The translations under genes and the position numbers were made by a program. Under the pieces are notes generated by a model. That model ran no database searches, was not told the origin of the DNA, and saw only the letters and a program-made list of their open reading frames with translations. A stretch of DNA of 64,000 bases, taken from positions 6,634,001-6,698,000 of the forward strand of contig NZ_CP055153.1 of assembly GCF_014075995.1 (NCBI RefSeq). The letters run 5' to 3'. Positions 1 to 17,346 of the stretch are shown one piece after another. Positions within the stretch are counted from its first letter, which is position 1; each line of letters opens with the position of its first letter. The DNA is from Adhaeribacter radiodurans. Lineage in GTDB: Bacteria; Bacteroidota; Bacteroidia; Cytophagales; Hymenobacteraceae.

Positions 1-585
1 GGGGCAGCTCAGAGTTGCCTGGAAGCAGTGCAAGTAGCGAATAAACTAGGAATTACTGTTTCGGCAGATATTAATTACCGTAAAAATTTGTGGCAATACG
101 GCAAAAAAGCCTACGAAGTAATGCCTGAATTGGTAGCCGGCTGCGACTTAATCGTATCAAGTATTGGCGATGCGGCAGATATTCTGCAAATAAAACCTGC
201 CGCCGAAGCAGCTGACCCATTCGTTTCGGTGGGCCAACAAATAATGCAGCAGTACCCGCGCATTAAAAAAATTGTAAATACCAACCGGGGTTCCATAAGC
301 GCATCGCATAATACGTTAGCGGGGATGATGTGGAACGGCCAGCAATTACTACAAACGCCTACCCACGATATGGTGCCTATTGTGGATCGTATTGGCGGCG
401 GCGATGCTTTTATGGCCGGTTTAATTTATGGCTTACTCACCTATCAAAATGATCAGCAAGCTTTAGATTTCGCGGTAGCCGCTTCGGCTTTAAAACATAC
501 TATTGAAGGCGATGCAAATTTAGTAACCGTTGCCGAAGTAGAACCGGTTATGCAAGGAGATAGCTCCGGACGTTTAAAAAGATAA
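1..585 (+). CDS. kdgK: 2-keto-3-deoxygluconate kinase, PfkB family (3' part)
   Basis: The reading frame is open from base 1, so the gene begins upstream; a GTG at 28 is internal and not a real start. The visible ~194 residues are the C-terminal part of a ribokinase/PfkB fold. ADINYRKNLW is the usual motif before the central helices. DRIGGGDAF is the second PfkB signature, with the anion hole and the catalytic Asp at codon 403-405. The tail GDSSGRLKR is the usual end of bacteroidal 2-dehydro-3-deoxygluconokinases. Such kinases phosphorylate KDG to KDPG in the cytoplasm. The next gene is the aldolase that cleaves KDPG and the third is a hexuronate-type carrier, which fits KDG kinase better than fructokinase or ribokinase. 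Substrate specificity is inferred from this context. Confidence 0.85.
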   Translation, partial: GAAQSCLEAVQVANKLGITVSADINYRKNLWQYGKKAYEVMPELVAGCDLIVSSIGDAADILQIKPAAEAADPFVSVGQQIMQQYPRIKKIVNTNRGSISASHNTLAGMMWNGQQLLQTPTHDMVPIVDRIGGGDAFMAGLIYGLLTYQNDQQALDFAVAASALKHTIEGDANLVTVAEVEPVMQGDSSGRLKR

Positions 586-588
586 ATT

Positions 589-735
589 AGTCAATAGACC
601 ATAGACTATAGTCTAATAGAAAAAACTAACCTAAGTGGTAATTAACCGGTTTATTACTAGTTTATTAAAAAATTAAATTTCTTTTTTATAATATGTGGAC
701 TATGGTCTATCGACTATGAACCATGGACTATCAAC
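589..735. repeat. Dispersed inverted-repeat element between kdgK and eda
   Basis: The word AGTCAATAGACCATAG (589-604) recurs inverted with one mismatch as CTATGGTCTATCGACT (700-715). Further degenerate pieces of the same word (ACTATAGTCT, ACTATGAACC, ATGGACTATCAACT) lie beside both arms. The centre is AT-rich and non-coding. It looks like a small REP/MITE-like intergenic element, and it creates two spurious ATGs upstream of the aldolase gene. Confidence 0.6.
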
Positions 736-742
736 TAAAAAT

Positions 743-1417
743 ATGGCTCGTTTTACCCGATTGCAAACTTACGCCAAAATGGCGGAAACTGGTTTAGTAC
801 CAGTATTTTATCATTCAAATATAGAAGTATGCCAGCAGGTTTTGGCGGCTTCGTACCGGGCCGGCGTGCGGGTTTTTGAATTTACCAACCGGGGCGATTT
901 CGCCCACGAAATTTTTGGTGAACTCAACAAGTTCGCGGCGCAGCATTGTCCCGAAATGATTATGGGTGCCGGAACTATTTTTGATACTGGTACGGCTGCC
1001 TTATACATGCAATTAGGAGCTTGCTTTATTGTATCTCCGGTTTTAAAAGAAGATGTAGCCATTACGTGTAACCGCCGCAAAGTAGGCTGGATTCCGGGGT
1101 GCGCTACCATGGGCGAAGTTTCCCGGGCCGAAGAATTAGGCGCCGAAGTAGTAAAGATTTTTCCGGGCGATGTGGTAGGTCCGGCTTTTGTAAAAAGCTT
1201 GTTAGCGCCCATGCCTTGGTCTACGGTAATGGTTACCGGTGGCGTGAAGCCCGAAGCAGATAATTTAAAATCCTGGTTTCAGGCAGGAGTAACTTGTGTA
1301 GGTTTAGGCTCGCAATTAGTACCCACCGAATTACTCAATAGCCAAGATTATGCTGGTATCGAGAACCACATGAAAACTACCATGGATTTAGTAAAACAAG
1401 CCCGGAATAAAAAATAA
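743..1417 (+). CDS. eda: 2-dehydro-3-deoxyphosphogluconate (KDPG) aldolase
   Basis: This is a class I aldolase of the KDPG/KHG family, which cleaves KDPG to pyruvate and glyceraldehyde 3-phosphate in the cytoplasm. Counting from the ATG at 743 it has 224 residues, normal for the family. Glu46 in VFEFTNRGD matches the catalytic Glu, and Lys138 in EVVKIFPG is the expected Schiff-base lysine. GAGTIFD and the glycine-rich phosphate-binding strand MVTGGVKPE are also present. The frame is open upstream to an ATG at 695, but those 16 codons (MDYGLSTMNHGLSTKN) are translated repeat DNA, so I reject that start. The gene lies between a KDG kinase and a hexuronate-type transporter, consistent with one catabolic operon. 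Confidence 0.9.
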   Translation: MARFTRLQTYAKMAETGLVPVFYHSNIEVCQQVLAASYRAGVRVFEFTNRGDFAHEIFGELNKFAAQHCPEMIMGAGTIFDTGTAALYMQLGACFIVSPVLKEDVAITCNRRKVGWIPGCATMGEVSRAEELGAEVVKIFPGDVVGPAFVKSLLAPMPWSTVMVTGGVKPEADNLKSWFQAGVTCVGLGSQLVPTELLNSQDYAGIENHMKTTMDLVKQARNKK

Positions 1418-1445
1418 AATCATCGTGTAATGTAATAAATAGTCT

Positions 1446-2762
1446 ATGCAAACTATAACTAAAACTGTTGCTACCGGAGTTGGTTCTTATCGCTGGACTA
1501 TTTGTTCGCTTGTATTCTTTGCTACTACCATTAATTACCTCGACCGGGCGGTAATTAGTTTATTAAAATCTAACCTGGAAACAGAGTTCCGGTGGACCGA
1601 AACGGATTACTCTAACATTGTAATTGCTTTTCAGTTGTCGTATGCCTTGGGTATGCTGGGAGTAGGCCGATTAATTGATAAACTGGGAACCAAGTTGGGT
1701 TATGCTTTATCCATTACTTTGTGGAGTGTGGCGGCTATTGGTCATGCTTTAGTAAAAAGTACTTTTGGTTTTGTTATTGCCCGTTCAGCCTTGGGTATTA
1801 CCGAAGCCGGTAATTTCCCGGCCGCGATTAAAACTGTGGCCGAGTGGTTCCCCAAAAAAGAGCGGGCTTTAGCCACCGGTATTTTTAACTCGGGTACGAA
1901 CATCGGGGCTATTATTGCACCTCTAACGGTACCGTTTATTGCGGCACAATGGGGTTGGCAATGGGCATTTATTTTAACTGGCATTATTGGATTTATCTGG
2001 CTGGTTGCCTGGTTTTTTATTTACGAAGTACCGGCTAAGCATGCCAAGCTATCCCGCACTGAATTTGATTACATTCATAGCGATGTTGATACGACCACTG
2101 ATACCGAGAATGCCGGAAAACCGGTTTCTTGGGTAAAGTTGCTGGGGTTCCGGCAAACCTGGGCCTTTGCTTTAGGTAAGTTTTTAACCGACCCGGTGTG
2201 GTGGTTTTATTTGTTCTGGCTACCCGCTTTTTTAAAAGCCGAATATGGCGTAGAAGGTACCGCTATGGCGTTGCCGGTTGCTTTGGTGTATACTTTATCT
2301 ACTTTTGGCAGCATTGGCGGCGGTTGGTTACCTTTAAAATTTATCCGGGGAGGCATGCCGGTATTTAAAGCCCGCAAAACTTCTATGCTGATTTATGCTT
2401 TTTGTGCGCTGCCGGTTTTGTTTTCGCAGTATTTAGGGTCGTTTAACATGTGGTTAGCCGTTTTTATAATTGGCTTTGCGGCCTCAGCGCACCAGGCCTG
2501 GAGCGCGAACATTTTTACTACAGTTTCAGATATGTTTCCCAAAAAGGCCATTGGCTCGGTTACGGGTATTGGTGGCATGTTTGGCGGCTTAGGCGGCATG
2601 CTGATTGCTAAATTAGCTGGCCTGTTATTCGATCATTACAAAGCATTGGGTACTATCGAGATTGGCTACTACATTATGTTCTTAGTTTGCGGTAGTGCTT
2701 ATCTGTTAGCTTGGTTAGTTATGCACGTATTAGCACCTAGAATGAAGCAAGTAGAATTATAA
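1446..2762 (+). CDS. MFS transporter, hexuronate (ExuT/ACS family)-like
   Basis: This is a 438-residue inner-membrane carrier with about 12 hydrophobic segments. NYLDRAVISLL in the first membrane segment and GRLIDKLGTKLGY in the first cytoplasmic loop are typical of the anion:cation symporter branch of the MFS, which includes ExuT (glucuronate/galacturonate) and related sugar-acid carriers. It starts 28 bases after the KDPG aldolase, so co-transcription is likely. The operon order kinase-aldolase-carrier suggests uptake of a hexuronate or 2-keto-3-deoxygluconate. The exact substrate cannot be read from the sequence. No clear terminator follows. Confidence 0.85.
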   Translation: MQTITKTVATGVGSYRWTICSLVFFATTINYLDRAVISLLKSNLETEFRWTETDYSNIVIAFQLSYALGMLGVGRLIDKLGTKLGYALSITLWSVAAIGHALVKSTFGFVIARSALGITEAGNFPAAIKTVAEWFPKKERALATGIFNSGTNIGAIIAPLTVPFIAAQWGWQWAFILTGIIGFIWLVAWFFIYEVPAKHAKLSRTEFDYIHSDVDTTTDTENAGKPVSWVKLLGFRQTWAFALGKFLTDPVWWFYLFWLPAFLKAEYGVEGTAMALPVALVYTLSTFGSIGGGWLPLKFIRGGMPVFKARKTSMLIYAFCALPVLFSQYLGSFNMWLAVFIIGFAASAHQAWSANIFTTVSDMFPKKAIGSVTGIGGMFGGLGGMLIAKLAGLLFDHYKALGTIEIGYYIMFLVCGSAYLLAWLVMHVLAPRMKQVEL

Positions 2763-3439: not shown

Positions 3440-6400
3440 ATGAAAAAAGTTACCCATCATTGGCAACGGAAAAGTTGCTTACTTTTACTGTTGACTGCTT
3501 TAGGAAGTCCGGGGTTTACCCGTCCTCTTCCGAATCCACTCTATTCTTCCGTAACAACTATTGATTGGCAAATAACCGGCAAAGTTACAGATGCCACAGG
3601 TGGTCCAGTGCCGGGTGCTACGGTAGTTTTAAAAGGTTCTGCTTCAGTAGGTACTACCACGGGAGCCGATGGAAGCTTTAGCTTATCTGTGCCGGAACAG
3701 GCCGGAACTTTAGTAATTTCTTTTATTGGCTATACTACCCAAGAAAAAGCTTTTACCGGTCCTGGAGCAATAAACATTACTATTTCCGAGGACGCAAAAG
3801 CTTTAGAAGAAGTTGTAGTAGTTGGTTACGGGGTGCAGAAAAAAGCCGACGTTACCGGAGCTACTGCTACAATTAATGCCAAAGATTTAAATGCCGGTGT
3901 AATTAATAACCCATTGCAATCGGTACAAGGTAAAGTTGCTGGGTTAAATATTGTAGCTGGCGGCGGTGACCCTACGAGTAACCGACCGGCTATTCGTTTG
4001 CGGGGTACTTCTTCTTTAAGCGCGAACAGCGAACCTTTAGTAGTAATCGATGGAGTAGCCGGAGCCGATTTAAACTCCGTAGCCCCCGAAGATATTGAAG
4101 CAGTGGACGTACTGAAAGACGCGTCGGCAGCAGCTATTTACGGTTCCCGGGCAGCGAACGGGGTAATTCAGATTACCACCAAACGTGGTAAAGCTGGTAA
4201 AACTACCGTAGAATTGAACAGCTATGTAGGTATGGAGCAAGTATCGAACATGCTGGATTTTCTGGGTCCAGATGAGTACGTAGCAAAATTACGAGAACTT
4301 AACTTAGATGTGGCAGCTAACGATTATGGTGCCCGCACCAATTGGTTCGACGAAATTACCCGTACCGCTATTAGCCATAACCAAAGTGTAGCCGTTTCCG
4401 GGGGGACCGATAAATTTAATTACCGGGGTTCAGTGGTGTATTTAGATCAGCCTGGTATTGCTTTAAATTCCGGCTTCGATCGTTTAAACTCACGCCTGAA
4501 CTTGACCCAGAAAGCGCTCGACGATAAATTAGAAATTCAGTTATTATTATCGCAGCAAAGAAGTAAGAAAAACTACGTTGATTATTTTTCTTATCTGTTG
4601 GCAGGTCGTATTAATCCTACAATACCGGTTTATAACGATAATGGTACTTACATGCAGCCTGGTGTATCTGGAGTAGATGTATTTAACGGGAACCGCATTC
4701 CGGGTGGTTTCGAAATTGAAAACCCAGTTGCCCGGATGCAGCAACGTACCAACGAATCAAACGAAAAGCAAACACTGGCTAATTTAAAGGTTTTCTTAAC
4801 TCCGGTAGAAGGCTTGCGTTTGGGTGTAAACACCTCTATTAATAATTTTAATACCAGCTATAGTTTTTTCCGACCCAGCAACTGGCGGGGTAGCGGTAAT
4901 AGTTTAGCTTTTGGTAGCCGTTCGCAGCGCGAAGTGTTAGACCGCTTAACCGAGCTTACTGCTAATTACAGCCGTACCACTGGTAAGCACAATTACAGCG
5001 CTTTAGTAGGGTATACTTATCAGAAATTAAGTAACGAAGGTTTTGGTGCTGAAAACAGCAGCTTCCCCGATATTTTTAACTCAAATAACTTAGAAGCTGG
5101 TAACCCAGGCAGCGATGGTTCTACCAACCGAGTAGTAAGATCTTACAAATCAGAAGCCGTCTTAATTGGTTTCATTGGTCGTTTAACCTACTCTTACAAC
5201 GATAAATATCTGTTTACCGGTAATATCCGGCGCGATGGTTCGTCTCGTTTCGGGCAAAACAATCAATGGGGTTGGTTCCCGGCATTTTCCGTGGGCTGGC
5301 GTTTAAAGCAGGAAAACTTTATGCAAGGTGTTGGTTTCCTGAATGATTTAAAACTACGTTTTGGTTACGGTGTAACCGGTAACCAGGAAGGTATTTACGA
5401 TTACGGTTCCCGTTTATTATTTGGACCGGCTAACTCTTACTATACCAATGGTGGTTTCCAAACAGCTTACCAATACAGCCAGAATTCTAACCCAGATTTA
5501 AAATGGGAAACTTCGGCCATGACCAATTTCGGGGTAGACTTTGCTCTCTTTAATAATCGATTGACTGGTTCGATTGAATTTTACAATAAAGATACCCGCG
5601 ATTTATTATTTGATTACCCTATTGCTATTGGTACCCGCTACGGTGGCGAACAACTTACTGCGGTAACAGGTAGCTTATTAGCTAACGTGGGTGAAATAAA
5701 TAATAAAGGTATTGAATTAGCTTTGGATTATATTGCTATTGATAACGGCGATTTCCAGTGGCGTACCAACGTTAACTTAGCGCATAACAAAAACAAAATT
5801 GTTTCCTTAAGCTCTGGTATCTTCCAATATAATCCGGCCAGCCCTAGAACATATGGTACTTTTGGTAGCGGTCAGGGAGGTATTGCCCAGCCAGTAGTGT
5901 TACAAGAAGGTCGTCCAGTTGGTCAGTTCTACGGTCCTGTTTTCCAAGGTTTCACGCAGAACAGCGATGGCTCTTACTCTTATAAATTCCAGGATATCGA
6001 CGGCGATGGAACGGTTGATCCATTTGGTAAAGACCGTACTTATTTAGGCGATGCTAACCCTGATTTAGTGTTTGCCTGGGGGAACACGTTTACTTATAAG
6101 AACTTTGATTTAAGCTTCTTGCTGCGCGGAGCTGTTGGTCACCAAATTGTAAATGGACCTTACATCTACTCCGCTAACCCTAACCGCTTCCCTGGTAACA
6201 ACGTTATTTCCGATGCCTTTTCTACCGGCATTCCGGCCGGTTTGTCGCCTGCTTTCTCTAGCTTGTGGGTAGAAGATGGCGATTTTGTTCGTCTGGATAA
6301 CTTCCGGTTCTCTTACCGTTTGCCTAACTTCTGGAAGTATTTAACGAATGCATCCGTATTCGTGGCCGGAAATAATACCTTTGTTATTACCAAATACCGG

Positions 6401-6586
6401 GGTATTGATCCGGAGCCAAGATTAGGTGCATCGCGTGATGTGTACGGTGGCTTAAATACCAATGTGGGCGGTACTACTATATCAGCAGCCGATGCTAATG
6501 CGCTAAATCTTTCTCCCGGTATCGAACCAGTTACATACTATCCTAAGACTCGTTCGTTCTCTTTAGGCGTATCATTAACTTTTTAA
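3440..6586 (+). CDS. SusC/RagA-type TonB-dependent outer-membrane transporter
   Basis: This is a 1048-residue TonB-dependent receptor, the normal size for SusC proteins. Order: signal peptide (about 1-27), a carboxypeptidase-regulatory-like domain from about residue 44 (ITGKVTDATGGPVPGAT), the linker ALEEVVVVGYGVQKK near residues 122-137, then the plug (RGTSSLSANSEPLVVIDG, DASAAAIYGSRAANGVI) and a long beta-barrel ending in phenylalanine (SFSLGVSLTF). It is a nutrient channel energised by TonB-ExbBD that works with the SusD lipoprotein 64 bases downstream. There is no anti-sigma-interacting N-terminal extension. Neighbours include no polysaccharide-degrading enzymes, so the cargo is unknown. 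The downstream FG-GAP and haloperoxidase genes hint at an unusual substrate. Confidence 0.93.
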   Translation: MKKVTHHWQRKSCLLLLLTALGSPGFTRPLPNPLYSSVTTIDWQITGKVTDATGGPVPGATVVLKGSASVGTTTGADGSFSLSVPEQAGTLVISFIGYTTQEKAFTGPGAINITISEDAKALEEVVVVGYGVQKKADVTGATATINAKDLNAGVINNPLQSVQGKVAGLNIVAGGGDPTSNRPAIRLRGTSSLSANSEPLVVIDGVAGADLNSVAPEDIEAVDVLKDASAAAIYGSRAANGVIQITTKRGKAGKTTVELNSYVGMEQVSNMLDFLGPDEYVAKLRELNLDVAANDYGARTNWFDEITRTAISHNQSVAVSGGTDKFNYRGSVVYLDQPGIALNSGFDRLNSRLNLTQKALDDKLEIQLLLSQQRSKKNYVDYFSYLLAGRINPTIPVYNDNGTYMQPGVSGVDVFNGNRIPGGFEIENPVARMQQRTNESNEKQTLANLKVFLTPVEGLRLGVNTSINNFNTSYSFFRPSNWRGSGNSLAFGSRSQREVLDRLTELTANYSRTTGKHNYSALVGYTYQKLSNEGFGAENSSFPDIFNSNNLEAGNPGSDGSTNRVVRSYKSEAVLIGFIGRLTYSYNDKYLFTGNIRRDGSSRFGQNNQWGWFPAFSVGWRLKQENFMQGVGFLNDLKLRFGYGVTGNQEGIYDYGSRLLFGPANSYYTNGGFQTAYQYSQNSNPDLKWETSAMTNFGVDFALFNNRLTGSIEFYNKDTRDLLFDYPIAIGTRYGGEQLTAVTGSLLANVGEINNKGIELALDYIAIDNGDFQWRTNVNLAHNKNKIVSLSSGIFQYNPASPRTYGTFGSGQGGIAQPVVLQEGRPVGQFYGPVFQGFTQNSDGSYSYKFQDIDGDGTVDPFGKDRTYLGDANPDLVFAWGNTFTYKNFDLSFLLRGAVGHQIVNGPYIYSANPNRFPGNNVISDAFSTGIPAGLSPAFSSLWVEDGDFVRLDNFRFSYRLPNFWKYLTNASVFVAGNNTFVITKYRGIDPEPRLGASRDVYGGLNTNVGGTTISAADANALNLSPGIEPVTYYPKTRSFSLGVSLTF

Positions 6587-6650
6587 ATAATGATGATCCT
6601 AATTATTTGCCTTTTACACTTTTAAATAAGTGCTTTAATTTAAATATGAT

Positions 6651-8186
6651 ATGAAAATACATCCTTATAAAAAGATTATTGCTGCAGCCTCTATTACCTC
6701 TTTGCTCCTGGGTGCGCCGGCCTGTACCGATCTGGATACTGAAATTTATGACCGGGCCGATGCGAATGAATTCCCGACTAGCGTACAGGAATTGCGATCT
6801 ATTATCGGGTCTACCTATGCCGAGTTGCGTGGTTTTTATGACCCGGTGAGTGTATTAAATGAGGCCACCTCCGACGAGATGGTGGTACCTACCCGCGGAC
6901 CAGACTGGTACGATAATGCTTCGTGGCAGCAAATGGCCCGTCACGAATGGACCCCCGTTTCACCGGGGCAGATAAATGGGTCCTGGGAGTGGGCTTATCG
7001 GGTAATTGCCAAAGCTAACATTAACTTGGTAGCACTTAATACTACCCAGTTAGATATTTCTGATGCCGATAGAGCAACCTTGGCCGCCGAACTAAAAACC
7101 GCCCGCGCGTATGCGTACTTCTGGCTAATAGACATGTTTGGCAGTGTTCCCCTTATTACCGAAGATACTCCGCCAGGCAACCCTAGCCAGAGTCCTCGCT
7201 CCGAGGTATTTGCTTTTATTGAAAAAGATTTAAAAGATGCATTACCAAATTTGTCAGAAGGGAAAGGCACGGAGTTTTATGGTCGGTTCACGAAAGGGGC
7301 AGCCAATACCTTATTGGCTAAATTGTACTTAAATGCGGAAGTTTATACCGGTACTGCTCGTTGGCAAGATGCTATTGCCGCTACGGATGCCGTTATTAAT
7401 TCCTCAACGGGATATTCTTTAAACCCGGATTTCTTATCTAACTTTGCTGTAAATAATGCGGCTAACCCAGCTACTTACAACGAGAATATTTTTACTATTC
7501 CGTATGATAAAATTCTGGCTACCGGTATGAACTGGCAAATGCGGACACTTCACTATGCGCAAGGTGGAGCGTATGGATTAAGTGGTAACCCCTGGAACGG
7601 ATTTGCTACCCGGGCAGATTTTTACAATACCTTTCCGGAAAACGATAAACGTCGGGCTATATGGTTAGTAGGGCCGCAAAAAGATAATCAAGGCAATATA
7701 ATCCAGTTTACCGATGCAGTGGATAACAAAAGTAAACAGTTAATATTTACGCCTGAAATTTCTTCGCTGGAGAAAGCTTTTGGTAACGAAGGGGTTCGAA
7801 ACGTGAAGTACGAGGTACAGAAAAACAATAACCGAACCGACCAGGACAACGACTTTGTAGCTTTCCGTTTTTCGGATGTACTTTTAATGAAAGCCGAAGC
7901 CTTGGTTCGTTCAGGTAACAGTGGCGATGCCATAGATTTAGTAAATCAGGTTCGGCAGCGGGCTGGTGTTGCTAATTTGGGTGCGGTTACGCTGGATGAT
8001 ATTTTAGCCGAACGTGGCCGGGAATTAACCTGGGAAGGCTGGCGCCGCAACGATTTGATTCGTTTTGGCAAATGGGAAGATGCCTGGCAGTTTAAGAACA
8101 ACAGCGATGTAAATAGAAGATTATTCCCTATTCCGGCAACGCAACTTTCCAGTAACCCTAACTTAAAACAAAACCCGGGTTACTAA
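6651..8186 (+). CDS. SusD/RagB family outer-membrane lipoprotein
   Basis: This 511-residue protein is the surface-exposed substrate-binding partner of the SusC transporter just upstream. The signal peptide ends in a lipobox with Cys25 (GAPAC), followed by TDLDTE. The N-terminal half contains the helical TPR-like part of the family (WAYRVIAKANINLVALN, ARAYAYFWLIDMFGSVPLI). The C-terminal half shows the RagB/SusD hallmark ILAERGRELTWEGWRRNDLI and ends RLFPIP...NPNLKQNPGY, which is diagnostic. It shares a transcript with susC (64-base gap) and is closed by a strong terminator at 8226-8258. The ligand cannot be inferred. Confidence 0.94.
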   Translation: MKIHPYKKIIAAASITSLLLGAPACTDLDTEIYDRADANEFPTSVQELRSIIGSTYAELRGFYDPVSVLNEATSDEMVVPTRGPDWYDNASWQQMARHEWTPVSPGQINGSWEWAYRVIAKANINLVALNTTQLDISDADRATLAAELKTARAYAYFWLIDMFGSVPLITEDTPPGNPSQSPRSEVFAFIEKDLKDALPNLSEGKGTEFYGRFTKGAANTLLAKLYLNAEVYTGTARWQDAIAATDAVINSSTGYSLNPDFLSNFAVNNAANPATYNENIFTIPYDKILATGMNWQMRTLHYAQGGAYGLSGNPWNGFATRADFYNTFPENDKRRAIWLVGPQKDNQGNIIQFTDAVDNKSKQLIFTPEISSLEKAFGNEGVRNVKYEVQKNNNRTDQDNDFVAFRFSDVLLMKAEALVRSGNSGDAIDLVNQVRQRAGVANLGAVTLDDILAERGRELTWEGWRRNDLIRFGKWEDAWQFKNNSDVNRRLFPIPATQLSSNPNLKQNPGY

Positions 8187-8225
8187 TATTTGGCCTTATC
8201 TAATTACCACTAAATACCAACCAAT

Positions 8226-8258
8226 AAAAAAAGCAAGTTGCTTCAACTTGCTTTTTTT
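8226..8258 (+). terminator. Rho-independent terminator after the SusCD pair
   Basis: The arms AAGCAAGTTG and CAACTTGCTT (8231-8240, 8244-8253) form a perfect 10-bp stem with a 3-base loop. An A-run flanks it upstream and a T-run downstream, extending the pairing to 15 bp. It separates susCD from the FG-GAP genes, which therefore probably have their own promoter or depend on read-through. Confidence 0.9.
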
Positions 8259-8301
8259 ATTATATTAGAGAAGCCTTTAAAGCGCTTTTTGTAGTTTACC
8301 G

Positions 8302-11300
8302 ATGATATCTAAATTAATTCGGGCCTTAACGGCCGTTGTTATTTGTTGCACCTGTTTTGCCTGCCAAAAAAAAGAACTCACTACAGATACTTTATTTGAA
8401 GAACTATCCACTTCTCAAACCAATATTACTTTTATTAATAAAGTAGAGGTAACGCCAGAAATGAACATTTTCAGTTACCGCAACTTCTACAACGGGGGTG
8501 GAGTAGCTATTGGCGATGTAAACAACGATGGCTTGCCGGATATTTACTTTTCGGCTAATACTGCTAAAAACCAACTTTACCTGAACAAAGGTAATCTGCA
8601 ATTTCAGAATATAACCGACTTAGCCCAGGTAGCAGGTAAACAAGCCTGGAGTACCGGCGTAACTATGGCCGATGTAAACGGCGATGGTTTACTGGATATT
8701 TACGTGTGCAATTCCGGTGATGTAACCGGCGATAATCGTAAAAACGAACTTTTTATTAATAACGGTAAAAATTCTCAAGGCATTCCTACTTTTACCGAAA
8801 AGGCCAGCGAGTATGGGCTGGATGATGAAGGGTATGGCACCCACGCCGCTTTTTTTGATTACGACCGCGATGGCGATTTAGATGTATATTTACTAAATAA
8901 TAGTTCTTACCCGGCCAATAGGCTAGGCTATACTAACGTCCGAAATCAGCGCGATAAATTAGCCGGTCAGAAATTATTCCGGAACGATAACCAGAAATTT
9001 ACCGATGTAAGCGAAACGGCCGGCATTTATGGTAGCTTAATTGGTTTTGGCTTAGGCATTACTGTTGGCGATGTAAACAACGATAATTGGTTAGATATTT
9101 TTATTTCTAACGACTTCTACGAGCGCGATTATCTGTATATCAATAATCAAAACGGTACTTTTACCGAAGCTTCTAAAGACTGGATGCGGCACGAAAGTTT
9201 ATCTTCCATGGGCGCCGATATTGCCGATATCAACAACGATGGCCACCTGGATATTTTTGTAACCGATATGCTGCCCAGTAACGATACGCGGCTAAAAAGA
9301 ACTTCCCAGTTCGAAGGTTACGATTTAGAACAACTAAAACTCTCCCGCGATTTTCATTACCAATACATGCAGAATATGCTGCATTTAAATAACGGTAATA
9401 ATTCGTTTAGTGAAGTAGCGCGGTTGGCGGGGGTACAAGCTACCGACTGGAGCTGGGGCGCTTTATTATTCGACATGGATAACGATGGCCTAAAAGATAT
9501 TTTTGTAGCTAATGGTATTTATAACGATATAACCGATCAGGATTTTGCTAATTTTTTGGGTAACGAAGAAACCATGCGGCGGGCCGTAGAAGGGGGCGGT
9601 TATAATTACAATAAAGAACTTATCTCTAAAATGACTTCTACGCCTATTCCGAATTATGCCTTTCAGAATAAGGGTAATCTGCAATTTGTGAATAAAGCAG
9701 AAAGCTGGGGTTTAGGAAAGCCCGGCTTTTCTAACGGGGCGGCTTACGGAGATTTGGATAACGATGGCGATTTAGATTTAGTAATTAATAATGAAAATTC
9801 TCCCGCTACAGTCTATAAAAATAAAGCTACTGAAAAACTTAAGAATAACTTTTTACGGGTAAAACTGCAGGGTACCGCAAAAAACCTCGATGGCATTGGA
9901 GCTAAAGTATACGTGCATCAACCAAACCAGACTTTGTACCTGCAGCAAATGCCCAACCGGGGTTTTGAATCATCCGTCGACTTAAACTTAACTTTTGGCT
10001 TAGGTAAAGAAACTCGCATTGATTCGGTAAAGATCATCTGGCCGGACGACAAAATGCAAGTAGTAAAAACAGTAAAAGTCAATCAACAACTAGTTTTAAA
10101 TTACCAAAATGCCGATAAAACATTAAAACCGGTAAAAGTTAAAGCTACAGGACCTTTTTACGATGCTACTCAGCAAGTAAAATTAAATTATGTTCACCGC
10201 GAAAGTAACTTTGTGGACTATAACCGCGATGCACTCTTAAAGCAAATGCTTTCCACTCAAGGTCCGGCCTTAGCTACCGGTGATGTGAATGGAGATGGCC
10301 GCGAAGATGTGTACGTAGGCGGAGCAGTGGGTAACCCTAAAAAACTTTTCTTGCAACAGGCAAATGGTACTTTCCTGGAAAAACCAACCACCACGTTCCA
10401 GGATGGTTTGCAATCAGAAGATGTAGATGCCATATTTTTTGATGCCGATAAAGATCAGGATTTAGATTTGTACGTTGTAACAGGTAGCAACGAGTTTTTG
10501 CCTAATGCTCCGGAGTTGCTGGACCGGCTTTACTTAAACGACGGAAAAGGAAACTTTACCCGCGATAATCGCTTACCCAACTTGGCCGAGAATGGTTCCT
10601 GCGTGGCCGCGGCCGATTTCGACCAGGATGGCGACATAGACTTATTTGTCGGGGGTCGCATGGTTTCTGGCAGCTATGGTTACGATCCACCGAGTTATTT
10701 ATATGTTAACGATGGCACGGGTAATTTTAAAAACTATACCAAGCGCTATTTACCTAAAAATGAATTAGGCATGATTACAGATGCCGCCTGGGCGGATGTA
10801 AATGGCGATAAATATCCCGAATTAATAATTGTAGGTGATTGGATGCCAATAATGGTATTTAAAAATAATAATGGCCGTCAGTTGGTGAGCAGCCATTCAG
10901 CGGGTATCCCTAATTCAGAAGGTTGGTGGAATGCCATAAAACCGGCTGACGTAGACGGCGATGGCGATCTGGATTTTATTTTGGGTAATCTTGGTAAAAA
11001 CACACGTATTGTGGCCAATACTAAACAACCCGCCGAGTTATACACCGCCGATTTCGACGACAACGGTACAGTAGAACAAATTATCTCTTGTTATACCGAA
11101 GATGGTAAAGCCTACCCCATGGTGCTGAAACAGGATTTACAAAAACAAGTACCCAGCATTAAGAAAAATTTTATTAAATACACCGATTACGCGGGTAAAC
11201 AAATTCAGGAGATATTTCCGGAAGAAGTTTTAAAAACAGCAATAGTTAAAAAAGTAACTAACCCCAATACTTCTATTTTGCTCAATCAAGGTAATTTTAA

Positions 11301-11634
11301 ATTTACTTTGCAGGCGCTACCGCTCGAAGCGCAGTTTTCCCCCGTTTTTGGTATTGAAACCTTCGATTACAACCACGATGGCAAACTGGATATGCTACTA
11401 ACCGGTAACTTCTTTGATGTTTTGCCGGAAATTGGGCGTTACGACGCCAATTATGGTTTACTTTTGCAAGGGAAAGGCCAGGGTAAATTTGCCGTTATTA
11501 AATCCCAAGATTCGGGTTTGCAAGTAAACGGGCAAGTACGCAAAAGCCGACAAGTTATTGGTTCTGCTAACCAGCCGCTATTCATTTTAGCTAAAAACAA
11601 TGACACTTTACAAGTTATCAGTTATAAAAAATAA
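8302..11634 (+). CDS. FG-GAP/VCBS and ASPIC-UnbV (CRTAC1-like) lipoprotein 1
   Basis: This 1110-residue exported lipoprotein has its lipobox cysteine at residue 21 (TCFAC). I count about 14 calcium-binding loops of the form DxNxDGxxD, for example GDVNNDGLPDIYF, ADVNGDGLLDIYV, FDYDRDGDLDVYL and ADVDGDGDLDFIL. They fall into two beta-propeller blocks (about 45-510 and 640-1090) separated by an ASPIC/UnbV domain near 530-600 (GIGAKVYV...FGLGKE...IIWPDD). This is the CRTAC1-type architecture, common beside SusCD pairs in Bacteroidota and usually annotated 'VCBS repeat' or 'RNA-binding' protein without a proven role. A surface-located ligand- or Ca-binding scaffold is inferred. Its last 35 bases overlap the start of a paralogue, so the two are probably co-translated. 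Confidence 0.88.
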   Translation: MISKLIRALTAVVICCTCFACQKKELTTDTLFEELSTSQTNITFINKVEVTPEMNIFSYRNFYNGGGVAIGDVNNDGLPDIYFSANTAKNQLYLNKGNLQFQNITDLAQVAGKQAWSTGVTMADVNGDGLLDIYVCNSGDVTGDNRKNELFINNGKNSQGIPTFTEKASEYGLDDEGYGTHAAFFDYDRDGDLDVYLLNNSSYPANRLGYTNVRNQRDKLAGQKLFRNDNQKFTDVSETAGIYGSLIGFGLGITVGDVNNDNWLDIFISNDFYERDYLYINNQNGTFTEASKDWMRHESLSSMGADIADINNDGHLDIFVTDMLPSNDTRLKRTSQFEGYDLEQLKLSRDFHYQYMQNMLHLNNGNNSFSEVARLAGVQATDWSWGALLFDMDNDGLKDIFVANGIYNDITDQDFANFLGNEETMRRAVEGGGYNYNKELISKMTSTPIPNYAFQNKGNLQFVNKAESWGLGKPGFSNGAAYGDLDNDGDLDLVINNENSPATVYKNKATEKLKNNFLRVKLQGTAKNLDGIGAKVYVHQPNQTLYLQQMPNRGFESSVDLNLTFGLGKETRIDSVKIIWPDDKMQVVKTVKVNQQLVLNYQNADKTLKPVKVKATGPFYDATQQVKLNYVHRESNFVDYNRDALLKQMLSTQGPALATGDVNGDGREDVYVGGAVGNPKKLFLQQANGTFLEKPTTTFQDGLQSEDVDAIFFDADKDQDLDLYVVTGSNEFLPNAPELLDRLYLNDGKGNFTRDNRLPNLAENGSCVAAADFDQDGDIDLFVGGRMVSGSYGYDPPSYLYVNDGTGNFKNYTKRYLPKNELGMITDAAWADVNGDKYPELIIVGDWMPIMVFKNNNGRQLVSSHSAGIPNSEGWWNAIKPADVDGDGDLDFILGNLGKNTRIVANTKQPAELYTADFDDNGTVEQIISCYTEDGKAYPMVLKQDLQKQVPSIKKNFIKYTDYAGKQIQEIFPEEVLKTAIVKKVTNPNTSILLNQGNFKFTLQALPLEAQFSPVFGIETFDYNHDGKLDMLLTGNFFDVLPEIGRYDANYGLLLQGKGQGKFAVIKSQDSGLQVNGQVRKSRQVIGSANQPLFILAKNNDTLQVISYKK

Positions 11635-14600
11635 ATCTGCTTTTTGTTACAGCATCTTCCTGCTTCTAACCTGTTTCATTTCCTGCACGGGCAAAAAAAC
11701 AACTACGACGGTAGTTAAAAATCCACTTTTTGAACTAACAGATAGTAGTAAAACCGGCATAACGTTTAGTAATAACCTGCAGGATACCAAAGATTTCAAT
11801 ATCTTAAGTTACTTGTATTATTACAACGGAGCCGGAGTAGCCGCTGGCGATGTAAACCAGGATGGGTTAACCGACTTGTTTTTCGTATCTAATCAGGGTA
11901 AAAACAAACTCTACTTAAATAAAGGAAATTTCCGCTTCCAGGATATTTCAGAAAATGCCGGTATTAGCGGGTATGCCGATTGGAAAACCGGCGTAACTAT
12001 GGCCGATGTAAACGGCGATGGCTGGCTAGATATTTACGTGTGCGCGGTAGGCAATTACAAAGGCTTGGAAGGCGCCAATGAACTGTACATAAATAATGGA
12101 GTTGGACCGGATGGCCAGGTAAGCTTTACAGAAAAAGCAGCGGATTACGGCTTAGATTTTTCGGGTTTTTCCACGCAGGCTGCTTTTTTTGATTACGACC
12201 GCGACGGCGACCTGGATGTGTATTTACTTAACCACGCCGTGCATACTGCCCGCAGTTACGACCGGGTAACTGCCCGAAACCTGCGCGATAACGAAGCCGG
12301 TGATTACCTCTTCGAGAATCAGTTAATTACCACTAAAGGCCAGGTACCAAAAGGAACCGCCGTAAAATTTAAAGACGTGAGCCAAGCGGCCGGCATTTAC
12401 GGCGCAGCTATGGGCTACGGCTTAGGAATAGCGGTAGCCGATTTTAATAATGATGGTTGGGTCGATATTTACGTTTCTAACGACTTTCACGAAGATGATT
12501 ATTATTACCTGAACAATGGGAATGGCACCTTTACCGAAAGCGTGAAAGACCATTTTCGCCACTTAAGCCGCTTTTCGATGGGCAATGATGCCGCCGATAT
12601 GAACAACGACGGTTATCCGGATTTAATGACGCTGGACATGTATCCGGAAGATGAAAAAATTGAGAAAGAATCGATGGGCGAAGACCCCATGGATATTTAC
12701 CTCTACAAACTACAGTTCGGTTATTTTAACCAGTACAGCCGCAATTGCTTGCAATTAAATTTAGGAGGGCAAAAATTTTCGGATATTGGTTTAATGGCCG
12801 GAGTAGCCGCTACTGATTGGAGTTGGAGCCCTTTGTTGGCTGATTACGATAACGATGGGCACAAAGATATTTTTATTACCAATGGCATTGTGCGCCGGCC
12901 CAATAATTTGGATTATATAAAATTTGCTTCGGCCGATTCCATGCAATTTGCTAAAAGTATCTCGAAGCAGATGGATCAAAAAGCCATAAGTATGATGCCG
13001 GAAGGCAAAGTACATAATTATATGTACCGCGGCACCACTAGTTTGCGCTTTCAGGATGAATCTACGAATTGGGGATTTGCTGAACCAACTATTTCGAATG
13101 GAGCTGCTTACGCCGATTTAGATAATGATGGCGATTTAGATTTGATTACCAATAATATTAACGCTCCGGCAGGTGTCTACCAAAATCAAAGCAATAAATT
13201 AGTAAAGCACCATTACTTAAAAGTTAAACTGCAAGGCGAAAATCTAAATACCTATGGAGTAGGAGCCAAGGTGTTTGTGAAACAGGCTGGGAAACTCCAG
13301 TTTCAGCAACTAATGGCTACCCGTGGTTTTTTATCGGCGGTAGAACCCGTTTTAAATTTTGGTTTAGGTAAAGCCCCGCAGGCCGATACTTTACTTATTA
13401 TTTGGCCTAACCAGAAAGCTCAGGTAAAAACCAACATTCCGGCAAATAGTACTTTGGTTTTAAAACAAGCCGACGCTCAAGAAGAAGCAAAGGCATATTA
13501 TGCTCATTTATTTCCTAAAACGCCGCCTTTATTCGAAGAAATTACTAAAACTACCAACGTAGATTTTAAGCACCAGGAAAATAGTTACCTCGATTTTTAC
13601 CGAGAAAGTTTAATGCCGTTCCAGGTATCTACCGAAGGCCCAAAACTGGCAGTAGGTGATGTAAACAACGATGGCTTAGATGATTTTTACGTAGGTGGTG
13701 CCAAATGGCAACCCGGTAAATTGTTCGTACAACAGAAAAACGGTAAATTTTTAACTACTAACCAAGCGCTTTTTCAAGCTGATTCTACTTACGAAGATGT
13801 GGATGCCGCTTTGTTTGATGCGGATAAGGATGGGGATTTAGATTTATACGTGGTAAGCGGCGGTAACGAATTTTACGGCAAAATGCCCGAGCAGTTCGAC
13901 CGTTTATACTTGAACGATGGGCAAGGTACGTTTACGAAAAGCAATAACCTGCCCCCGATGTACGATAATAAAAGCTGCGTAAAAGTTGCGGATTACGATA
14001 AAGATGGCGACTTGGATCTTTTTGTCGGTGGGCGGGTAGTAGGCTATCAATACGGCAATTCGCCTAATTCTTACTTACTCATTAACAATGGGCAAGGTAA
14101 ATACAGCGATCAAACGGCTCAACTGGCTCCGGCTTTGCGGCAAGCGGGTATGGTTACTGATGCTTCCTGGGCGGATTATGACCAGGATGGCGATTTAGAT
14201 TTAATTGTGGTAGGCGATTGGATGCCGATCCGGATTTTCGAAAATCAAAAAAATCGTTTAATCGAAACTACCGAACCGAGCGGTTTAGCTGCTTCTCAAG
14301 GATTATGGCAAACCATTCAAGCCGCGGATTTTGATAAAGACGGTGACCAGGATTTTGTAGTTGGGAACCTCGGCACTAATACCAAATTACGGAAACATCC
14401 AGATACTAAGTTAAAGTTATACGTGAAAGATATTGATGGCAACCAAACGGTTGATCATATTTTAGCTTACAGTTTAGGCAATAAGTGGTACCCGGTAGCT
14501 ACCAAAGACGAGCTAGGCAAGCAAATGCCCCTTATCAATAAGAAATTTACTAATTACAAGGAGTTTCCGGGTAAAGCCATCGACGAAATTTTTAATAATA

Positions 14601-15034
14601 ATGAATTAAAAGATGCCAGAGTACTGGAGGTAAACCACTTTGAATCAATTTATTTAGAAAATGACGGCAAAAAGCATTTTAAAGTAGTGCCTTTGCCTAA
14701 GGAGGCTCAGATTTCTAAAATATTTACTTTTTACCCTACCGATATTAATCAGGACGGTAATTTAGATGTTTTATTGGGCGGTAATTTTTATGGCGTAAGC
14801 ATGTACCAGGGGCGCTACGATGCTAGTTACGGGTTATTATTGCAAGGTAATGGCAAAGGGGCCTTTAAACCCATCCTGCCTACAACCAGTGGTTTTTTAC
14901 TCGAAGGCGAAATCCGGGATATTAAGCCGCTAAAAACTGCATCCGGTCTTATTTATCTGGTTGCCCGCAACAATGCTCCTCTTCAGGTATTCCGGCCCAA
15001 GAAGACCGGTGCTACCGCTTTAGCTACTAAATAG
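11600..15034 (+). CDS. FG-GAP/VCBS and ASPIC-UnbV (CRTAC1-like) lipoprotein 2
   Basis: This 1144-residue paralogue of the preceding protein has the same layout: signal peptide with lipobox cysteine 29 (CFISC), a first FG-GAP block, an ASPIC/UnbV domain near residues 550-615 (GVGAKVFV, NFGLGKAP, IIWPNQK), then a second block. About 14 Ca-binding loops are visible, such as ADVNGDGWLDIYV, ADFNNDGWVDIYV and ADYDQDGDLDLIV. The ATG at 11600 lies inside the upstream gene. It is needed to encode the signal peptide, so a real 35-base overlap in another frame is likely. Function is unknown. The tandem pair and the conserved order suggest a duplicated surface module serving the SusCD system. Confidence 0.87.
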   Translation: MTLYKLSVIKNKSAFCYSIFLLLTCFISCTGKKTTTTVVKNPLFELTDSSKTGITFSNNLQDTKDFNILSYLYYYNGAGVAAGDVNQDGLTDLFFVSNQGKNKLYLNKGNFRFQDISENAGISGYADWKTGVTMADVNGDGWLDIYVCAVGNYKGLEGANELYINNGVGPDGQVSFTEKAADYGLDFSGFSTQAAFFDYDRDGDLDVYLLNHAVHTARSYDRVTARNLRDNEAGDYLFENQLITTKGQVPKGTAVKFKDVSQAAGIYGAAMGYGLGIAVADFNNDGWVDIYVSNDFHEDDYYYLNNGNGTFTESVKDHFRHLSRFSMGNDAADMNNDGYPDLMTLDMYPEDEKIEKESMGEDPMDIYLYKLQFGYFNQYSRNCLQLNLGGQKFSDIGLMAGVAATDWSWSPLLADYDNDGHKDIFITNGIVRRPNNLDYIKFASADSMQFAKSISKQMDQKAISMMPEGKVHNYMYRGTTSLRFQDESTNWGFAEPTISNGAAYADLDNDGDLDLITNNINAPAGVYQNQSNKLVKHHYLKVKLQGENLNTYGVGAKVFVKQAGKLQFQQLMATRGFLSAVEPVLNFGLGKAPQADTLLIIWPNQKAQVKTNIPANSTLVLKQADAQEEAKAYYAHLFPKTPPLFEEITKTTNVDFKHQENSYLDFYRESLMPFQVSTEGPKLAVGDVNNDGLDDFYVGGAKWQPGKLFVQQKNGKFLTTNQALFQADSTYEDVDAALFDADKDGDLDLYVVSGGNEFYGKMPEQFDRLYLNDGQGTFTKSNNLPPMYDNKSCVKVADYDKDGDLDLFVGGRVVGYQYGNSPNSYLLINNGQGKYSDQTAQLAPALRQAGMVTDASWADYDQDGDLDLIVVGDWMPIRIFENQKNRLIETTEPSGLAASQGLWQTIQAADFDKDGDQDFVVGNLGTNTKLRKHPDTKLKLYVKDIDGNQTVDHILAYSLGNKWYPVATKDELGKQMPLINKKFTNYKEFPGKAIDEIFNNNELKDARVLEVNHFESIYLENDGKKHFKVVPLPKEAQISKIFTFYPTDINQDGNLDVLLGGNFYGVSMYQGRYDASYGLLLQGNGKGAFKPILPTTSGFLLEGEIRDIKPLKTASGLIYLVARNNAPLQVFRPKKTGATALATK

Positions 15035-15370
15035 TTGTACGTTTTAGATGGTAAATTTTCTTTTTAGAGTGCTAACTGTTAATGATAGAACTTTTTATTG
15101 ATTGAGAGCTATTAGGTAGTAAGCTACAAAATGCATAATAGTTTTAATGAGAACAAAAAACTATAAGCGTATTTACTTAAAATGACACTTTATAGGATTA
15201 TAATAGTGTTTTTTATTAAAAGTTTAGCAAATTTTTCAGTAACCGAAACACTTATCTAAATTTTAGGTCAGTTTAGTCTTTGCTATTTTATTTATTATCT
15301 TTAAGTAAAAATAACGATGTTGCTTTTACAGGTTATGGAGTAATTACCTGTAAAAAAGCGTTGGTTCTTT
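15035..15370. other. Spacer upstream of the haloperoxidase-like gene
   Basis: This is 336 bases of AT-rich DNA with no open frame of note. Its only clear structure is the inverted repeat at 15322-15359, just before the next start codon. No U-tailed terminator is seen after the FG-GAP pair. Confidence 0.5.
15322..15359 (+). promoter_or_regulatory. Hairpin directly upstream of the haloperoxidase-like start
   Basis: The arms TTTTACAGGT and ACCTGTAAAA pair perfectly around a 12-base loop. The pairing extends outward to GC at both ends, with two extra A in the right arm. It ends 11 bases before the ATG at 15371. It lacks a downstream T-run, so an mRNA leader hairpin or a protein-binding operator is more likely than a terminator. 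The function is inferred. Confidence 0.45.
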
Positions 15371-16735
15371 ATGAAGGTTGAGTTTTTTTCTTTTTTAATT
15401 GCTATTGTAATGCTGGTGGGGGTGAGTTGTCAGAAAAGAACAGCTGATCAAACTACCTTAGCCAATCCGGATGTGATGCATACTTCCGTTCGGAAGTTAA
15501 CCGATGTAATGGTGCACGATATATTTTCGCCGCCCGTTGCCAGCCGAGTATACGCTTATTCTACTATTGCGGCTTATGAAGCCTTGTTGCCAGGCTATCC
15601 TAATTACCAATCCTTAGCCGGGCAGTTAAAAAATTTAAAAGATATACCTAAGCCTACTCCAGGGCAGGAATATTGCTATCCATTGGCAAGTTTACGGGCT
15701 TTTTTAACGGTAGGTCGTACCCTTACCTTTTCCGGCGACAAAATAGATGAATTTGAACCATTAGTTTACCAAAAATACAAAGATGCCGGCTTAGACGAAG
15801 AAGTATATGACCGCTCGATGGCTTATGGAGAAGCCATTGGTAAAAAAATACTGGAATGGGCCAATCAGGATGGTTATCGCGAAATCCGCGGCCACCGTTA
15901 TACTGTGGTAACTACCGAACCCGGAAAATGGCAACCAACCCCACCGGCTTATATGGATGCTATAGAACCCTATTGGTATAAAATACGGCCGTTTGCTTTA
16001 GATTCGTGTAGCCAGTTTAAACCGGCTGTGCCTAGCAAATTTGATGTAAGTAAGGGAAGCGATTTTTACAAGGAAACGATGCAGGTGTACGATGCCGGTA
16101 AAAACCTGACGACTGAACAAAAAACTATTGCCTCTTTCTGGGATTGTAATCCGTTTGTGATGCACAACACGGGGCACGTAATGTACGCTACCAAAAAAAT
16201 AAGTCCGGGTGGTCACTGGATTAATATTGCTGCCGTTGCATCTAAAAAAGCGAATGCCGACTTTATGAAATCAGTAGAAACGTATGCTTTAGTTTCTATT
16301 GCGGTAGCTGATGGATTTATCTCGTGTTGGGACGAAAAGTATCGGAGCGGTCGTATCCGGCCCGAAACGGTAATTAATACCTACATTGATAAAGATTGGG
16401 TGCCGTTGCTGCAAACGCCGCCTTTTCCGGAATACCCGAGTGGCCATAGTGTTATCTCTACAGCAGCAGCGGTTACGCTTACCTCTTTATTCGGCGAAAA
16501 CTTTGCTTATACCGATTCAACGGAAGTAGTTTTTGGCTTATTGCCCCGTAAATTTACTTCTTTCCACCAGGCTGCCGAAGAAGCATCTATTAGCCGATTG
16601 TACGGGGGAATTCATTACATGCCCGCAATAACTAATGGACAAACAGAAGGCCGTTTAGTAGGCGAGTTGGTGGTAAGTAAAATTAAAACTCGGAAAGCAG
16701 ATACAAAAGCAGAGCAAGTGGCGGTTGCAAAATAA
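15371..16735 (+). CDS. Vanadium-dependent haloperoxidase / PAP2 family lipoprotein
   Basis: This 454-residue exported protein has a lipobox cysteine at residue 20 (GVSC). The three PAP2/vanadium-haloperoxidase motifs are present with standard spacing: Lys323-x6-Arg330-Pro, Pro356-Ser-Gly-His359 and Ser408-Arg409-x5-His415. In vanadium chloroperoxidase the equivalent Lys, Arg, Ser-Gly, His, Arg and His hold vanadate; in acid phosphatases the same residues hold phosphate. The protein could therefore be either a halide-oxidising enzyme or a phosphatase. The overall length and N-terminal helical region resemble bacterial haloperoxidase-like proteins rather than short PAP2 phosphatases. It follows two FG-GAP lipoproteins and precedes a Dabb-domain gene, and is probably anchored facing the periplasm or cell surface. 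Confidence 0.85.
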   Translation: MKVEFFSFLIAIVMLVGVSCQKRTADQTTLANPDVMHTSVRKLTDVMVHDIFSPPVASRVYAYSTIAAYEALLPGYPNYQSLAGQLKNLKDIPKPTPGQEYCYPLASLRAFLTVGRTLTFSGDKIDEFEPLVYQKYKDAGLDEEVYDRSMAYGEAIGKKILEWANQDGYREIRGHRYTVVTTEPGKWQPTPPAYMDAIEPYWYKIRPFALDSCSQFKPAVPSKFDVSKGSDFYKETMQVYDAGKNLTTEQKTIASFWDCNPFVMHNTGHVMYATKKISPGGHWINIAAVASKKANADFMKSVETYALVSIAVADGFISCWDEKYRSGRIRPETVINTYIDKDWVPLLQTPPFPEYPSGHSVISTAAAVTLTSLFGENFAYTDSTEVVFGLLPRKFTSFHQAAEEASISRLYGGIHYMPAITNGQTEGRLVGELVVSKIKTRKADTKAEQVAVAK

Positions 16736-16947
16736 GCCTCATTCATTACCATTACATCATTGTCCGCAAACCAGTAAAAATTCACTAAATGCTTATGGAG
16801 AAGTCAGGCGTATAGTTTTATTAAAGTTTGTTTTAAGTTCCCGATTACCAGCAACTACGAGAGCATAAGAAATAGTTGTTACTTTCTGATTACCTTACTA
16901 GCTTTACTCGTTACATAGCAAAACCATTAAATTAAATTAAATTAAAC

Positions 16948-17346
16948 ATGAATAAATTATTTGGTACCGGTTTAACCGTTTTAGCGTTTAGCGCGTTCTT
17001 TTTTCTTTCAACTGCTCTTATCGCTAAAAAAGAACAAGTTCGCCACGTAGTAGTTTTTAAGTTTAAACCTACTGCTACGCCAGCGCAAATTGCCCAAGTA
17101 ACTCAAGAATTGGGCGCTTTAAAAAGTAAAATACCGGGTATTATCTCCTTCGAACACGGCGTAAACGATAGCCCGGAAAAGAAAAACTTAGGTTTTACAC
17201 ACGTTTATTTAATCACTTTTGAAAATGCAGCTGCCCGCGATACGTATTTGCCACATCCGGAACATAAAAAGTTCGGCCAATTGCTCGGGAAACTGGGTAT
17301 TATGGAAGATGTGTTTGTTGTAGATTATGCGCCGGAGGCTAAATAG
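16948..17346 (+). CDS. Exported Dabb (stress-responsive alpha/beta barrel) domain protein
   Basis: This 132-residue protein has an N-terminal hydrophobic segment (residues about 6-26, likely a signal peptide or anchor), followed by a Dabb domain. The conserved strand RHVVVFKFK, the GALKSKIPGIISFEHG turn and the HPEHKKFG segment are typical of this dimeric ferredoxin-like barrel. Family members bind small aromatic or polyketide-like ligands, and some are enzymes; the role here is unknown. It lies 212 bases downstream of the haloperoxidase-like gene on the same strand and ends at a strong terminator, so it may close that transcription unit. Export of a Dabb protein is somewhat unusual and may relate to the oxidised product of its neighbour. 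Confidence 0.8.
   Translation: MNKLFGTGLTVLAFSAFFFLSTALIAKKEQVRHVVVFKFKPTATPAQIAQVTQELGALKSKIPGIISFEHGVNDSPEKKNLGFTHVYLITFENAAARDTYLPHPEHKKFGQLLGKLGIMEDVFVVDYAPEAK

Follow-up and report, generated by a model that had tools for sequence, protein, structure and literature searches.

Positions 3440-17346 of a 64,000-nucleotide stretch of Adhaeribacter radiodurans (NZ_CP055153.1; the window) carry a SusC/SusD pair, followed by two UnbV/FG-GAP lipoproteins (U1 and U2, together U) and a lipoprotein of the vanadium haloperoxidase type (V). The UnbV proteins and V very probably form a conserved module. On balance we favour, by a modest degree, reading the whole as a variant carbohydrate SusCD locus equipped with this module, with peroxide/iodide chemistry at the outer membrane.

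Co-occurrence and proximity of V and UnbV

Genomes with V and UnbV were counted at three taxonomic ranks, without correction for relatedness. In the family (120 genomes), V hits with an E-value of 3e-107 or better were found in 39 genomes, all 39 of which had UnbV. Two genomes had UnbV without such a V, and 79 had neither. Among 194 genomes of the order, V (E-value up to 1e-30) was detected in 76 and UnbV in 98, with both in 74. The exceptions with V and no UnbV were G040, whose V hit had an E-value of 1e-46, and G265, an 89% complete draft with V near a contig end. In the phylum sample (296 genomes), V (E-value up to 1e-60) occurred in 58 genomes and UnbV in 141, and all V genomes also had UnbV (58/58; hypergeometric P 9e-23, relatedness ignored).

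The two genes were also close together. Proximity was counted for 80 V genes scoring at least 359 bits in the 120 family genomes. A UnbV domain lay within 5 kb for 67 of them, versus 0.83 expected randomly, and in 59 of these 67 the nearest UnbV domain was on the same strand as V. The distribution of UnbV is broader than that of V, with 72 of the 146 UnbV domains in the family sample having V within 5 kb. The A. radiodurans genome encodes six V homologues. The two most divergent had no U in the surrounding 20 kb, and a third was 10 kb from UnbV.

Recurrence of the gene order

The V-locus stretches were fetched around V hits and are not a random sample. The greedy open reading frame (ORF) caller missed V in L055, L164 and L247, which lowers the recurrence counts. 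In the family set (34 V loci), the order SusC-SusD-U-U-V was found in 11 and SusC-SusD-U-V in five. The GTDB set (79 V loci) had four and one, respectively, with six more leaving the stretch after SusD, and the phylum sample (19 V loci) had two and four, each of these six in the same class but outside the order of A. radiodurans. The SusCD-CRTAC1-CRTAC1-haloperoxidase order pointed out in the initial annotation thus recurs in Bacteroidota, in this family and in other families and orders.

Where 9 kb or more of sequence upstream of V was available, a same-strand U was present upstream within 9 kb in 28/30 family, 32/56 GTDB and 10/17 phylum loci. When two U genes were upstream, the U1-type preceded the U2-type in 42/45 loci (25/28 family, 11/11 GTDB, 6/6 phylum). 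Some clades retain U-V only. In Mucilaginibacter, U and V occupy opposite strands, with a hybrid two-component regulator and SusCD behind.

Further genes were seen beside U or V. A ~300-aa protein with a membrane-anchor-like start adjoins U or V in L261:10649-11557, L253:8388-9308, L254:8045-8944, L170:8026-8916 and L181:4689-5585. The L261 protein matches a GyrI-like small-molecule-binding domain, and the other four are N-terminally alike; this protein could belong to the module as well. A 190-aa exported or lipoprotein-like protein (cluster c18) lies between two U genes in L046:902-1486 and seven other loci, with no Pfam match in the one member scanned. An exported-looking amidase stands directly before V, or one gene off, in the Roseivirga-type loci L046, L052, L061, L070 and L084. 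Elsewhere in the A. radiodurans genome (C2, ~5.774-5.776 Mb; L127:16235-17679), ORFs judged from their sequence to be IS3-type transposase-like split a SusC-SusD-U operon from a paralogous V gene, the two being ~10 kb apart.

V is related to vanadium iodoperoxidases

V matched the vanadium iodoperoxidase VIPO1 of Zobellia galactanivorans (4cit) with an E-value of 7e-142 (phmmer), the next solved relative reaching only 6e-4. The AlphaFold model of V (pLDDT 83, pTM 0.85) aligned to the second VIPO1 structure, 4usz, with TM-scores of 0.84/0.91 and 48% identity. The seven vanadate/phosphate ligands recognized in the initial annotation are all present (K323, R330, S357, G358, H359, R409 and H415), so that V has both the fold and the anion ligands of a Zobellia-type enzyme. 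Five of the ligands (K, R, S, R and H) were invariant across 127 V homologues. The SGH motif kept its G and its H in 126 each, and a Trp three residues before the ligand Lys was likewise kept in 126. V is probably a vanadate peroxidase, its vanadate loading and peroxidase chemistry being predicted from the 48% identity to the iodoperoxidase. Fournier and colleagues reportedly described in 2014 the residue numbering and a strict iodide preference of the Zobellia enzyme. The Zobellia representative is called an iodoperoxidase in the accessible part of PMC13198595, which also cautions that group membership does not settle halide use.

Alternatively, V could be a PAP2 phosphatase that strips phosphate groups off sugars or glycerol headgroups ahead of their import, with peroxidase activity as a side reaction. 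Its fold and ligands are common to acid phosphatases, which appeared from rank 18 of the fold matches, and glycerol facilitator, kinase and dehydrogenase genes follow V in several relatives. Ranks 1-17, however, were all haloperoxidases or their homologues (e.g., NapH3), and no phosphate-uptake family was among the 25 families listed for the neighbours of V. In the classical PAP2 phosphatase motif, the fourth residue past the catalytic His is Asp. This position is Ala in V, Ala or Ser in 124/127 homologues and Asp in 1/127, which also speaks, although weakly, against the dephosphorylation proposed at first. We consider a phosphatase role unlikely.

U1 and U2 are CRTAC1-like lipoproteins

The UnbV_ASPIC domain scored 78 bits in U1 and 71 bits in U2 (Pfam cut-off 23.4), placing both in the UnbV/ASPIC family. 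A profile of 38 U proteins, searched against the PDB, found murine CRTAC1 (9etn) with an E-value of 1.9e-29, and also integrin alpha-6. The U1 model (pLDDT 87, pTM 0.88) was beta-rich on either side of the UnbV domain, and its best PDB fold match was again murine CRTAC1 (TMt 0.71), suggesting that U1 probably has two beta-propellers flanking the UnbV domain. Unlike CRTAC1, the U proteins are bacterial lipoproteins, about twice as long and only 19% identical to it. Many of their Asp/Asn positions are invariant, and calcium binding would be expected from family membership. To our knowledge, UnbV proteins have no assigned function in bacteria.

Cellular location of U and V

A simple lipobox rule recognized a lipidation Cys in 42/49 SusD, 7/8 second-type SusD, 96/127 U and 91/127 V proteins. 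At least two acidic residues at positions +2 to +6 were found in 74% of SusD (n = 42), 43% of second-type SusD (n = 7), 17% of U (n = 96) and 19% of V (n = 91). A basic residue at these positions was present in 29%, 86%, 79% and 82%, respectively. Bacteroidota surface lipoproteins bear an acidic export signal, as stated in the accessible part of PMC5080379. U and V mostly lack this signature of SusD, which gives no support to the surface location first assigned to the chemistry. We infer an envelope location for both. The pattern hints that they are turned towards the periplasm or rely on a different signal, but it is suggestive only, the second SusD type being intermediate and the comparison covering SusD, U and V proteins.

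The carbohydrate setting

The adjacent SusC and SusD (Pfam/NCBIfam) mark a SusCD uptake locus. As the initial annotation had noted, none of its six proteins (0/6, positions 3440-17346) matched a carbohydrate-active enzyme (CAZyme) family in the Pfam/NCBIfam scans. It is therefore not a polysaccharide utilisation locus (PUL) in the strict sense, which has a glycoside hydrolase or lyase linked to SusCD; relatives do carry hydrolases. In the same genome, a paralogous U-V pair is part of a typical glycan locus, SusC-SusD-SGBP_B-GH9-U-V-GH43-HTCS (L125). Directly after V in a SusC-SusD-U-U-V locus, G116 encodes a kojibiose hydrolase. In many Cyclobacteriaceae-type loci the neighbours of V include some of the following: a kojibiose hydrolase (NF053734, over its cut-off), a trehalase, a TreS-like GH13 enzyme, an SSF symporter, a glycerol facilitator, kinase and dehydrogenase, a ROK kinase and a beta-phosphoglucomutase. 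In L253, from another order of the same class, the genes after SusC-SusD-U-U-V encode an MFS carrier, a PfkB kinase, a GH13 enzyme resembling sucrose phosphorylase (323 bits against a cut-off of 334) and a trehalase-like protein. L262 has an alpha-L-fucosidase and a GH3 enzyme after V, and L140 and L147, from the genus of the window, have a 3-keto-disaccharide hydrolase in the V locus.

We scanned 108 same-strand neighbours out of 178 drawn from 124 loci, and 108 of 210 control genes. Both sets exclude eight near-identical Mucilaginibacter loci, the stretches L167-L217, chosen for their kojibiose hydrolase or serving as upstream or control regions, and short loci. Among the 108 neighbours were GH65 domains (10), trehalases (6), SSF symporters (8), FGGY kinases (3), fucosidases (2) and 3-keto-disaccharide hydrolases (2). 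The family list of the controls, which shows 25 of 139 families, contains no glycoside hydrolase, although small families could hide a few; two of the 108 control genes matched the FGGY kinase. These surroundings make a carbohydrate the likely cargo of the module, and by analogy with its relatives the copy in the window probably imports one too.

The initial annotation had instead proposed a dedicated importer for a ligand that is not a glycan, or is halogenated or phosphorylated, and that is oxidised or dephosphorylated at the cell surface. The locus without CAZymes and the haloperoxidase type of V fit such a system, but the relatives beside glycoside hydrolases, sugar kinases and sugar transporters, including the GH9/GH43 locus of the same genome, contradict a non-glycan cargo. 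The family list for the 108 neighbours, which shows 25 of 110 families, contains no sulfatase. The only dehalogenase-like families listed there were of the HAD type (PF13419 and PF00702, two matches each), a class that includes beta-phosphoglucomutase. With U and V also without the SusD-like acidic signature, we regard this proposal as improbable.

More specific candidates were not adopted. Kojibiose or trehalose was set aside as the cargo of this copy because A. radiodurans has no kojibiose hydrolase over the cut-off and the sugar theme varies by clade; its only full trehalase is ~2.8 Mb away on the record. A uronate cargo was suggested by the closest catabolic genes, the end of a KDG-type kinase gene, a KDPG aldolase and an MFS carrier (the KDG block). 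This block was found upstream in 4 of 13 stretches examined, those of the four closest genus members (A. radiodurans, G014, G009 and G003). It is probably a separate unit, because it was missing upstream in nine further same-family stretches, two of them from the same genus, and because other genes are inserted between the block and SusC in G009 and G003. To its left (stretch L134) is an ORF that starts like a short-chain dehydrogenase, as read from its N terminus.

As a source of peroxide, a glycerol-3-phosphate oxidase was considered for some relatives with a flavin adenine dinucleotide (FAD) protein near V. This protein scored below the cut-offs of both the oxidase model (481 bits, cut-off 840) and the dehydrogenase model (340 bits, cut-off 360), so that its assignment to either is at most tentative. 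GMC oxidoreductases near V (L145, L158 and L159; in L261 on the opposite strand) are a possible, putative source.

Proposed role and alternatives

In the variant carbohydrate locus that we favour, SusC and SusD would import a small carbohydrate, with U1 and U2 as propeller-type partners of SusCD in place of the usual SusE/F-type proteins. V would be anchored at the outer membrane beside SusCD and U, and would convert hydrogen peroxide and iodide (perhaps bromide) to hypohalous acid. Peroxide would be consumed and the cell envelope armed during sugar uptake. The cell may benefit by removing peroxide, by defending its feeding site chemically or by capturing iodine; a peroxide/halide shield is a tentative choice, which we hold to be possible rather than probable.

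Several observations weigh against this reading. Because UnbV was missing from 16 of the 17 family genomes with weaker V homologues only (best E-value 4e-73 or worse), the rule that V comes with UnbV is limited to the close V subfamily. Of the 80 family V genes, 13 were more than 5 kb from UnbV. V loci without a U in the stretch numbered 24/79 in the GTDB set, 3/34 in the family and 7/19 in the phylum, some of them because of contig ends or missed ORFs. The catabolic theme varies between clades. Of the 35 kojibiose hydrolase genes over the cut-off in the order, only seven were within one gene of V, and the remaining 28 had no V called in the stretch. The copy in the window has no peroxide source, halide transporter or hydrolase linked to it. 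Lastly, if a PAP2-fold protein acted as an iodoperoxidase in vitro, its role in the cell would not thereby be established.

V might also work on the cargo itself, through a rearrangement or oxidation that needs no halide or only a transient one, such as NapH3 performs, with U presenting the cargo. NapH3 (8cxl; activity per the entry title) is among the nearest folds, and the pattern of close V with UnbV fits a U-V enzyme complex. The identity to NapH3 is only 18%, however, and the carbohydrate themes near V are too diverse for a single cargo reaction, making this mode of action quite improbable. That V and U just often adjoin where big genomes carry large SusCD loci, without joint function, would fit the UnbV genomes without V (83/141, phylum sample), the divergent V homologues without UnbV and the larger genomes that may carry more of both, but is very unlikely given the clustering within 5 kb and the fixed U1-U2-V order.

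Locus layout and neighbouring genes

The family scans agree with the initial annotation on the SusC, SusD, FG-GAP/UnbV, haloperoxidase and Dabb genes, all six ORFs lying at the same positions on the plus strand (Table 1). U1 and U2 overlap by 35 bases, and 336 bases separate U2 from the start of V. The Bacteroidota-type promoter pattern TTTG..TAnnTTTG had four matches in the window, the chance number, with none before SusC or V; sigma-70-like promoter sites were also at chance level.

Table 1 Features of the SusCD-UnbV-haloperoxidase locus and the block upstream of it.
Feature	Position	Strand	Length and family matches
KDG-type kinase (end only), KDPG aldolase, MFS carrier; uronate-type block	28..2762	+	Family scans
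SusC/RagA TonB-dependent outer-membrane channel (C)	3440..6586	+	1048 aa; TIGR04056 790 bits, cut-off 368
SusD/RagB lipoprotein lid (D)	6651..8186	+	511 aa; PF07980, PF14322; acidic residues after lipobox Cys (translation)
U1, UnbV/FG-GAP lipoprotein	8302..11634	+	1110 aa; PF13517 x10 stretches, PF07593; CRTAC1-like
U2, second UnbV/FG-GAP lipoprotein	11600..15034	+	1144 aa; PF13517 x10 stretches, PF07593
V, vanadium-iodoperoxidase-type lipoprotein, PAP2 fold	15371..16735	+	454 aa; PAP2 family; 4cit match
Exported Dabb protein, neighbour rather than conserved part	16948..17346	+	132 aa; PF07876

Of the loci examined, only this one and that of G014 had the Dabb gene directly beside V. The idea that its protein binds the product was rejected, because in two of the four closest loci (G009 and G003) the orthologue (75-77%) is far from the V locus and unlinked.

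Further downstream, on the minus strand, 17991-19238 encodes a 415-aa exported FG-GAP protein, conserved beside Dabb in G014 and before SusC in G024. Two giant ORFs follow on the same strand, of 1869 aa (19536-25145) and 5441 aa (25344-41669). Both have malectin and immunoglobulin-like domains, the shorter one also kelch, and the longer one cadherin and a terminal type IX secretion sorting domain. By their domains, they look like secreted giant adhesins.

Relation to known systems and significance

V is like Zobellia VIPO1 in fold, ligands and the neighbouring Trp. In this comparison, which covers the protein only, V differs by its SusCD-UnbV-UnbV context, and its halide use is predicted. The SusC-SusD pair with lipoprotein partners resembles PULs such as the dextran locus FjDexUL of Flavobacterium johnsoniae (accessible part of PMC10316084), whose GH65 kojibiose-hydrolase family also occurs in relatives of the module. 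Unlike FjDexUL-type PULs, the locus has UnbV proteins for SusE/F and a peroxidase-type gene in the cluster, with no hydrolase in this copy.

The UnbV-haloperoxidase pairing was not found in a search of the open-access literature, most subscription journals being outside its reach, and is not mentioned in the accessible parts of PMC11871015 and PMC12871659. The SusCD-U-U-V arrangement is thus undescribed as far as the open-access literature was searched. The claim that this locus was the window's best candidate for an undescribed system stands for the recurrent SusCD-U-U-V order and, more narrowly, for the UnbV-haloperoxidase module; the non-glycan cargo and the Dabb protein as a part are no longer included.

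A physiological parallel is Arenibacter C-21, an iodine-accumulating Bacteroidota strain. Its iodine uptake requires glucose, oxygen and calcium, a peroxide-generating system can substitute for glucose, and its genome encodes five or more proteins homologous to the Zobellia enzyme (PMC5064120). The likeness is physiological only, as PMC5064120 reports no gene context or genetic link. In Zobellia, the iodoperoxidase vIPO3 was more highly expressed on a brown alga than on alginate, according to the accessible part of PMC9296495. A bolder proposal, speculative and in our view rather doubtful, is that UnbV propellers and close V relatives form an obligate complex, a halogen-oxidising device in SusCD sugar importers that couples sugar uptake, peroxide and iodide phylum-wide. 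If true, it would explain the need of Arenibacter iodine accumulation for glucose and calcium.

Close relatives of the Zobellia iodoperoxidase and UnbV proteins are both widespread, in 58 and 141 of the 296 phylum genomes. Our finding joins the two families: in the samples searched, genomes with a close peroxidase relative hardly ever lack UnbV, and in those of the family the two usually adjoin. This tie gives each family a testable partner, and could connect sugar feeding with biological iodine cycling or with chemical defence of the envelope.

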